A DNA stretch of 41,122 nucleotides, taken from the NCBI GenBank assembly GCA_035543055.1, contig DATKKJ010000037.1:1-41122 (forward strand), given 5' to 3'. The translations under genes were made by a program, and so were the position numbers. The DNA is from Terriglobales bacterium (lineage in GTDB: Bacteria; Acidobacteriota; Terriglobia; Terriglobales; Acidobacteriaceae). The notes beneath the pieces were generated by a model that saw only the letters and a list, made by a program, of their open reading frames with translations, ran no database searches and was not told where the DNA came from. Below, piece by piece: positions 10,621-27,755 of the stretch (position 1 is the first letter of the stretch; every line of letters begins with the position of its first letter).

Positions 10621-10695
10621 GCGTCCCTAGAGTACGCTACCGGGAGGACCAATTGAACATTACCGAATGCCACTGCCGGACGTGTCCCATGGGGA

Positions 10696-26022: not shown

Positions 26023-26505
26023 CTACAGCTTGCGCAACACCTCGAACACATCCTCGTTGTCGGGCTGCTGGTCGAGGGGATAGATCTTGCTGAAGACGAC
26101 CTTCCCTCCCTTATCGATGATGAACACGGCACGCTCGTTGATGCCGGGGATGGGGTCGCCCTGCCGCAGCACGCCGAACTTCTGTGCCACCGAGCCATGG
26201 GGATAGAAATCGCTGCCCAGGGGATAGTTCAGCAAGCCGATATCTTTCTTCTGCCACGCGATGTGGCTGGGGATCGAGTCCACGCTTATGCCCACGACCT
26301 GGGCATCGAAGCCGGCGAACTTGTCGAGGTCCGCGTTATACGCCGGCATCTGTGCGGTTCAAACCGGGGTCCAATCAAGAGGATAAAAGGCCAGGACGAC
26401 ATGCTTCTTGCCCTTGAAGTCGCTCAGCTTTACCTTCTGCCTCTTGTCGCCGACGACCGCAGGGACCTCGAAGTCCGGCGCCATTTCACCGACTTTCAAC
26501 GCCAT
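26023..26505 (-). CDS. Probable selenocysteine-containing peroxiredoxin (in-frame TGA at the peroxidatic position)
   Basis: 160 residues if the TGA at 26361-26359 is read through. The start ATG at 26505 has GGAGG eight bases before it. The first half (MALKVGEMAPDFEVP, then VVLAFYPLDWTPV) and the second half (TAQMPAYNADLDKF, then PLGSDFYPHGSVAQKFGVL) are in one frame and form a complete AhpC/TSA-type peroxiredoxin of the 1-Cys AhpE/BCP kind. The TGA is residue 49, exactly where the family has its peroxidatic Cys (TPVC). No other Cys occurs in the protein. Selenocysteine insertion is therefore the best reading, as in the known PrxU-type selenoproteins. A mutated Cys codon (TGC or TGT to TGA) or a sequencing error is the alternative. 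It would reduce hydroperoxides in the cytoplasm. A good promoter lies upstream. A gene finder would split or truncate this gene. Confidence 0.85.
26311..26347 (-). promoter_or_regulatory. Candidate bacterial SECIS hairpin
   Basis: Eleven bases after the TGA, the minus-strand mRNA can pair GCCGGCG (26347-26341) with CGCCGGC (26317-26311), extended by AAC/GUU beyond a three-base bulge, with a 14-base loop starting with G. An alternative inner hairpin pairs GCGGAC with GUUCGC (6 bp, loop of 8). Both lie within the distance expected for bacterial SECIS elements, which sit in the coding region just after the UGA. No folding program was run. Confidence 0.5.
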
Positions 26506-26557
26506 TCGGGGTTCCTCCGCACTACTGCTTCGTCCGCCAATCGATGGCGAACATTCG

Positions 26558-26586
26558 ATTGTAGTCAGCGGGGAAAAAAGGGACAA
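26558..26586 (-). promoter_or_regulatory. Sigma-70-type promoter of the peroxiredoxin gene
   Basis: On the minus strand TTGTCC (26586-26581, 4 of 6) and TACAAT (26563-26558, 5 of 6) are spaced by exactly 17 bases. The predicted leader is about 45 bases and contains the Shine-Dalgarno sequence. Confidence 0.65.
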
Positions 26587-26706: not shown

Positions 26707-26813
26707 ACACACACGCGGGGCACGGAACCTCTCCGGAGCGTATGATTCCCCTGCACGTTTTCCAGATAACGCGAGCGGAACAGCGCGGCATCGGAACCCG
26801 AGAGGAGGCATCC

Positions 26814-27755
26814 TTGTTCGGCTTCAGCTCCTACAACTACGAGAAGTTCACGCGCGACCTGCTGGTGAAGGACATGGAGGCCTGTAGGTCGGCGGGAGGC
26901 CCGGAACCGGGCGAAAAGGCCCCCGACTTCGAAGGGCGCACCCTGGACGGCGACAAGATCAGACTCAGCGACTTCCGGGGCGACCGGAACGTCGTGGTGA
27001 CTTTTGGGTCGGCCACCTGCCCGATGACCGCAGGTTCGATCGGCGGCATGAACAAGCTCTGCGAGGTGTACCGCGGCGAAGACGTGCGATTCCTCTTCGT
27101 CTATGTGCGCGAGGCCCACCCCGGCGAAGAGATCCCCGCCCACCAAGAGATGAAGGACAAGGTGCGGGCGGCGCAGATCCTCCAAGCAGAAGAGCAGATC
27201 GAGATGCCGATCGTGGTGGACGAGCTGAGCGGGCCCATCCACCGCAGGTACGGCAAGCTCCCGAATCCCACCTACCTGATCGACAAGTCGGGACGCGTCG
27301 CCTTCCGCTGCCTGTGGACGCAGCCTGGAGTGGTGGAGGACGCCCTGGAAGCCCTGCTGGAACGACAGCGCGAGCGCGGCGTGGATCACGCCGTGGTCAA
27401 TAGCGGGGAAGACCGCTCCATGCCGGTCTCGTATGCGGTCATCCATGCCTATCGGGCGCTGGAGCGCGGCGGCCAAAGGTCGCTTGCGGACTTTCGCGAA
27501 TCCATGGGCCTGCCGGGACGTGCCTTCCTGACCGCCAGCCGCGTAGTGCGGCCCGTGGCCATGAATCCGGGCAAGGCGATCGCGGCGGCAGCCTTGGCCG
27601 CGGGCGCGCTCACCGCCGGTCTGCTGGCCGGCAAGAAACTGCGCCAGCAGAGATGGCAGCGCGACCTGCCCTACGACGTCCACCAGGCGCCCACACAGCG
27701 CAAACCCAAACGAACGGCGACCGGGACGGACGATTACGAGCCGGTGGGGATCTAG
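26814..27755 (+). CDS. Deiodinase-like thioredoxin-fold (redoxin) protein
   Basis: 313 residues from a TTG at 26814. It is chosen because AGGAGG lies at 26803-26808 with 5-base spacing; an ATG at 26742 lacks this. Residues about 30-185 are a thioredoxin fold: PEPGEKAPDFEGRTLDGDKI, the active-site FGSATCPMT with Cys69, then FLFVYVREAHPGEE and NPTYLIDKSGRVAFR. The FGSxTC and YVREAHP elements closely resemble iodothyronine deiodinases (FGSCTU and IYIEEAHP), in which the equivalent residue is Sec. Here it is Cys. A C-terminal extension (about 200-313) has an Ala-rich hydrophobic stretch (251-272) that could be a membrane helix, then a basic tail. The natural substrate is unknown; peroxide or disulfide reduction is more likely than iodide removal. 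It is divergent from the TGA-containing peroxiredoxin. Confidence 0.82.
   Translation: MFGFSSYNYEKFTRDLLVKDMEACRSAGGPEPGEKAPDFEGRTLDGDKIRLSDFRGDRNVVVTFGSATCPMTAGSIGGMNKLCEVYRGEDVRFLFVYVREAHPGEEIPAHQEMKDKVRAAQILQAEEQIEMPIVVDELSGPIHRRYGKLPNPTYLIDKSGRVAFRCLWTQPGVVEDALEALLERQRERGVDHAVVNSGEDRSMPVSYAVIHAYRALERGGQRSLADFRESMGLPGRAFLTASRVVRPVAMNPGKAIAAAALAAGALTAGLLAGKKLRQQRWQRDLPYDVHQAPTQRKPKRTATGTDDYEPVGI

Follow-up and report, generated by a model that had tools for sequence, protein, structure and literature searches.

A predicted selenocysteine peroxiredoxin of Terriglobales with two hairpins downstream of its UGA codon

A peroxiredoxin gene interrupted by an in-frame TGA in a Terriglobales genome is by far best read as a functional selenoprotein gene, a reading supported by exchange of TGA with Cys codons among homologues, by the presence of selB, selC, and selD, by co-occurrence with selA, and by RNA structure specific to Sec genes. 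We assign a probability of about 0.8 to the fuller proposal that the product is a Sec peroxiredoxin with a SECIS element of two tandem hairpins, of which the downstream one (hairpin 2) would bind SelB and the upstream one (hairpin 1) would act as a spacer. Decoding of the UGA codon would be carried out by SelB with tRNA-Sec, directed by this tandem element inside the coding sequence, and Sec49 would serve as the peroxidatic residue in an enzyme of thioredoxin fold that reduces peroxides; because the protein has no second Cys, a thiol from outside would have to reduce Sec49 again. The likely binding site of SelB is hairpin 2, whose loop carries AGGU, even though it starts 52 nt past the UGA codon; hairpin 1, directly 5' of it, probably folds out and thereby brings the loop to within about 21 nt in effect. 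These roles are proposed because of the geometry and the conservation of the two hairpins.

The stretch of DNA analysed (the window) is 41,122 nt long, and the features listed below lie on its minus strand; hairpin positions are counted with the T of TGA as 1.

26023..26505, minus strand: peroxiredoxin gene with a predicted Sec, encoding 160 residues when the TGA is read as U49; active-site set P42, T46, U49, R125
26359..26361, minus strand: TGA codon of predicted selenocysteine 49, the peroxidatic residue, from the TGA/Cys alignment of homologues
26311..26347, minus strand: hairpin 1, proposed spacer hairpin, nt 15-51; stem GCCGGCG/CGCCGGC in this genome
26288..26306, minus strand: hairpin 2, proposed SelB-binding SECIS hairpin, nt 56-74; stem AUGCCC/GGGCAU
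26294..26300, minus strand: loop of hairpin 2, AGGUCGU; AGGU in 115 of 119 Sec sequences
26558..26586, minus strand: sigma-70-like promoter match TTGTCC-17-TACAAT, by consensus match only
26513..26518, minus strand: Shine-Dalgarno-like GGAGGA, 7 nt upstream of the ATG, from the sequence

The frame runs from an ATG at 26505-26503 to a TAG ending at 26023, and its single internal TGA, at 26361-26359, is residue 49. A preliminary description of this DNA had placed the TGA at this position with both halves of the gene in one frame, which is correct. It had also reported a promoter and a good ribosome binding site; one sigma-70-like match is present at 26586-26558 (0.2 expected in shuffled sequence), and GGAGGA lies at 26518-26513. 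The damage that it foresaw from automatic annotation is visible in a program-made list of open reading frames, which ends the gene at 26359 and resumes it at an ATG at 26349. It had stated that the protein has no other Cys, and the read-through product of 160 residues indeed has none, as do 15 of 53 Sec orthologues; the remaining orthologues carry Cys at places that are not constant, with residue 97 being Cys in 29 of the 53. The divergent neighbour (26742-27755, plus strand) encodes an iodothyronine-deiodinase-like protein (PF00837 at 63.5 bits), in which Cys occupies what we take to be the position where deiodinases carry Sec.

The read-through protein contains an AhpC-TSA domain (121.7 bits, cut-off 26) and a Redoxin domain, and the residues P42-L-D-W-T46-P-V-U49 form the motif PxxxTxxU. 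P42, T46, C/U49, and R125 are invariant in 20 aligned sequences; in a wider set of 35, T46, C/U49, and R125 are invariant and P42 occurs in at least 90%. Structure prediction from a single sequence was poor (mean pLDDT 56.9), and prediction from 35 aligned relatives gave a mean pLDDT of 96.5. With the latter model as query, the best fold match is 5zte (E 2.8e-19), and the 50 fold matches listed are 2-Cys types throughout. By sequence the best solved match is again the 2-Cys PrxA 5zte (2.5e-26), with the best AhpE, 5id2, at 5.8e-21. The preliminary assignment as AhpE/BCP-like is thus only roughly right: by both sequence and fold AhpE (the 1-Cys type, Rv2238c) is not the closest solved relative. 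The resolving Cys of a 2-Cys peroxiredoxin is absent from this Cys-free protein.

Sec peroxiredoxins are a known kind of selenoprotein (PMC13188914; PMC1088965), and the window protein belongs to it. It shares with the Sec-containing peroxiredoxins listed there (PF00578, TxxU) the thioredoxin-fold peroxidase, the Sec at the peroxidatic position of PxxxTxxU, and widespread Cys homologues; it differs from those listed in forming its own subfamily at the level tested, in having no resolving Cys, and in its tandem-hairpin SECIS. None of the NCBIfam equivalog cut-offs is reached. The best NCBIfam match is PrxU (NF040737), at 83.2 bits, far under the cut-off of 270; the window protein is shorter than PrxU and lacks a leader-like N-terminus. 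The same genome encodes a second peroxiredoxin selenoprotein (contig C117:18006-18416, locus L094), which resembles PrxU more, has a leader-like N-terminus and a TGA at the peroxidatic site, and shows the same tandem-hairpin layout. For Acidobacteria, a published table already records selenoproteins of three families, in four genes (PMC1794560).

The preliminary description had further placed the TGA at the peroxidatic Cys site and proposed an alignment of homologues at residue 49; the alignment bears out the placement. Among 298 genomes from the order, including this one, a search for rows of at least 51% identity with a single internal TGA gave 54 such rows in 52 genomes, of which 53 were read; one partial TGA row, in genome G206, was left out of the codon reading. 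Read codon by codon in 68 homologous loci (the 53 TGA loci and 15 others, forming the upper part of the order-level match list), residue 49 is mostly TGA (53/68), sometimes TGC or TGT (9/68), and otherwise Ser (6/68). The best 80 of 337 relatives in the genome collection, 29 of which are common to both sets, have TGA in 68 and Cys in 12. They span Terriglobales, other Acidobacteriota including Pyrinomonadaceae, and Bacillota; all eight Bacillota loci (Ammoniphilus, Neobacillus, Litchfieldia, Bacillus, and one Bacillaceae MAG) have TGA. On a tree of 93 proteins the Sec and Cys forms need seven changes each, at least four of them forced by supported branches, and the exchange between Sec and Cys is therefore repeated.

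Sixteen Ser forms fall on one side of one branch of this tree (support 98/66, from a bootstrap that had not settled). These paralogues (loci L087, L088, L090-L093, and L234-L243), from 16 genomes of the order, make up one clade with Ser at the peroxidatic site (AGC, AGT, TCA, or TCG), and 15 of the 16 have Cys at the PLCSDF position; each of the 16 genomes has, in addition, selA and a Sec (14) or Cys (2) orthologue. They look like putative non-peroxidase relatives of the selenoprotein.

A search for selA, selB, selC, and selD, which the preliminary description had proposed, recovered the last three. The tRNA-Sec gene (selC) lies at C9:7066-7159 and scores 63.1 bits against a gathering score of 47, with anticodon UCA by ARAGORN; the tRNA-Sec model itself is unspecific, with matches in 14 of 14 control genomes and over the cut-off in five. 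A second match over the cut-off (contig C151, 51.3 bits) was rejected as a tRNA-Ser by ARAGORN. In locus L001, a tRNA-Sec at 1497-1594 adjoins a Cys-bearing 1-Cys type peroxiredoxin gene at 1657-2349 on the minus strand (PF00578 and PF10417). SelB scores 380.2 bits (cut-off 242), with both SelB winged-helix families present, and SelD 368.5 bits (cut-off 125). The selD gene, at C182:17770-18693 (loci L015 and L095), has one in-frame TGA, lying in a G-U-A motif, and is itself a selenoprotein gene; all 13 selD genes found in 14 genomes contain a TGA, and in the seven of these 13 that were read the SECIS loop lies 20 nt after UGA, an ordinary short distance.

No selA match was found in this assembly (best 13 bits). 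The congener G042 has the gene order recG, selA (whole), DUF488, ACPS. The recG side matches G042 as far as base 10661, the last of contig C102, where selA is cut after 13 codons (VKAPTKADLYRKL vs VKAPSKAELYRKL), and the ACPS side is located at the end of contig C143. Because the contigs end at these points, the apparent absence of selA seems to be an assembly gap between C102 and C143. The genome is a draft of 255 contigs rated 100% complete, and such a rating gives no protection against a false gene absence of this kind. Elsewhere in the order, all 51 other genomes with a TGA orthologue have selA, which was found (E 1e-60) in 136 of the 297 other genomes (p ~1e-20, phylogeny ignored).

The preliminary description had noted a hairpin just after the TGA. 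This hairpin exists (hairpin 1), but a second and more conserved one, hairpin 2, had been missed. Both were followed in 119 unique sequences with Sec (53 from the order, 21 PrxU-like, and 45 others) and in 21 unique Cys/Ser sequences for comparison; they are kept in the Sec genes and decayed in the Cys/Ser relatives. In hairpin 2, nt 56-61 pair with nt 69-74 around a loop at nt 62-68. The Sec sequences form six pairs in 96 cases, five in 21, four in one, and three in one, compared with six in one, five in three, four in seven, three in eight, and two in two of the Cys/Ser sequences; the loop begins with AGGU in 115/119 Sec sequences vs 11/21 others. Codon choice in the order-level Sec set is narrow, with GCC for Ala in 52/52 and CAG for Gln in 53/53, vs 62% and 57% in 15 Cys/Ser sequences.

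Pair 58-72 of hairpin 2 is G-C in 84, A-U in 32, and other in three of the 119 Sec sequences, through an Ala/Thr change in one arm of the stem and synonymous Gly codons in the opposite arm; within the order it is G-C in 51, A-U in one, and G-U in one, so that the signal lies mostly between clades, which counts against it, as does a C.A at pair 59-71 in 20 of the 119. In a mixed alignment of 53 sequences, hairpin 2 has 27 double-changed cells vs 8.2 in shuffles and a covariation score of 0.297 vs 0.167, with none of 500 shuffles as high for both; the pairs with a double change (2 vs 1.8) and the further pair types (5 vs 4.8) are like those of shuffles. The order set gives 25 double-changed cells vs 5.3 in shuffles, with further pair types not above shuffles, and in the PrxU-like set alone covariation is nowhere above shuffles.

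In hairpin 1, nt 15-21 pair with nt 45-51 in 82.7% of cells of the order set, and four pairs show a double change. One register of hairpin 1 for all clades was rejected; a single register pairs 36.6% of cells, and the clades differ. RNAalifold on the 53 order-level sequences predicts hairpin 2 only, which counts against hairpin 1. A shuffle test that needs no common register, in which synonymous codons are permuted with the protein and codon counts kept, gives hairpin 1 mean z values of -2.24 (53 of the order), -1.54 (21 PrxU-like), and -2.24 (45 others), vs +0.30 in the 21 non-Sec sequences. The corresponding values are -1.95, -1.36, -2.08, and -0.32 for hairpin 2 and -0.22, +0.96, -0.02, and -0.18 for a control stretch further downstream. 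The window gene alone gives moderate values (hairpin 1 -2.1, hairpin 2 -1.4, control -1.1), which count against the structure. A basal helix joining the nucleotides just past UGA with those past hairpin 2, suggested by RNAfold for the window gene, was dropped after inspection of the alignment by eye because other sequences do not preserve it. Between 26000 and 26600 no Rfam family is over its gathering score; two weak, chance-like matches lie on the opposite strand.

Bacterial SECIS elements, in the bSECISearch model, have a loop of 3-9 nt, a stem of 4-16 bp, a G within the first two positions of the loop, a spacing of 16-37 nt between UGA and the apical loop, and an energy of -7.5 kcal/mol or below; certain putative elements do not fit the model and may belong to separate classes (PMC13188914, section 5 and figure 2 legend). 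Hairpin 2 has every feature of this model but the spacing in 96 of the 119 Sec sequences, each with GG or GU. Its distance from UGA to the loop is 60 nt in 67 sequences, 59 in 50, 58 in one, and 57 in one, outside 16-37. It resembles the consensus of the same source sections in most sequences (a loop of 3-7 nt that opens with GG or GU, a stem of 6-8 pairs, and sufficient energy) and differs in lying at 57-60 nt, with another hairpin intervening. The E. coli fdhF SECIS is likewise a small hairpin whose apical loop, containing G-U, is contacted by SelB (PMC8659212). Its loop bases are G23 and U24, with 11 nt between UGA and the upper stem-loop; the G and U of the hairpin 2 loop are nt 64 and 65. 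Hairpin 1 spans 37 nt, and if it is folded out, about 21 nt would separate UGA from the hairpin 2 loop, which is near the 20 nt found in selD; 24-fold closed loops give 22-23 nt.

The TGA could also be a plain pseudogene mutation or a sequencing error, as a draft assembly might suggest, but this is very improbable: the same TGA recurs within the order, in 52 more orthologues, as well as in isolates of Bacillota, the frame is otherwise intact, and both the selA co-occurrence and the Sec-specific RNA structure speak against it. Ordinary readthrough, or reassignment of TGA to another residue, would be compatible with a frame that is open under any reading of TGA; we consider it scarcely credible, given that TGA exchanges with Cys at the catalytic site, that the Sec machinery is present, and that the neighbouring genes end normally under table 11.

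A more substantial question is which hairpin does what. Because hairpin 1 satisfies the loose published model in 51 of the 119 Sec sequences, it could itself be the SECIS, at an ordinary distance, with hairpin 2 as an accessory such as an enhancer or a pause signal, and the shuffle test does find hairpin 1 to be Sec-specific. Its loop is not conserved, however, starting with GG or GU in 8/119 sequences vs 96/119 for hairpin 2, it keeps no common register across clades, and it is hairpin 2 that carries the near-constant AGGU; we regard this arrangement as unlikely. It is similarly doubtful that SelB binds a single composite site made up of the two hairpins, stacked for instance, with no simple split between spacer and binder: both are Sec-specific and hold a constant place in the 119 sequences, but conservation of loop sequence is concentrated in hairpin 2, whose distance was tested to an order of magnitude only. 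The spacer-and-binder proposal is preferred over both.

The tandem layout looks like a new variant and resembles the possible distinct classes of the review (PMC13188914, same sections). A literature search found no tandem-hairpin or long-spacing bacterial SECIS; the original bSECISearch and Eubacterium acidaminophilum PrxU papers lay outside its coverage, and such an element may be in print. Somewhat less securely than the reading of the gene itself, we favour a distinct bacterial SECIS class, with an AGGU hairpin for SelB 57-60 nt past UGA and a spacer hairpin restoring about 21 nt, used by two families of peroxiredoxin selenoproteins in Acidobacteriota and one in Bacillota, beside a short-range selD SECIS read by the same SelB. 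If such a class is real, programs that search for SECIS elements would have to count folded distance rather than nucleotides; a search by linear spacing would take the wrong hairpin or miss such genes, because the 16-37 nt limit excludes hairpin 2. If hairpin 1 is a spacer, it offers a direct test of whether it is nucleotide length or folded distance that the ribosome and SelB measure, and the test is practical because cultured Bacillota isolates carry the same element, among them the soil isolates Ammoniphilus resinae and Neobacillus niacini (loci L173 and L203). The gene itself is a further, well-supported example of a Sec peroxiredoxin, one that plain annotation breaks in two.

The element also serves as a search model. 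The hairpin pattern GCCCAGGTNNTGGGC preceded by TGA matches the window gene alone in the genome. A covariance model built with hairpin 2 only scores the two Sec peroxiredoxins of this genome at 91.1 and 69.5 bits, with the next match at 15.1. The congener and genome G188, both outside the training of the model, give 94.1, 70.7, 94.6, and 51.0 bits, and four selA-negative genomes give at most 22.9 bits. Across the phylum, 87 of 297 genomes match at E 1e-6, and in 26 of the 28 loci read the match begins with a TGA that occupies the peroxidatic position of a peroxiredoxin reading frame.
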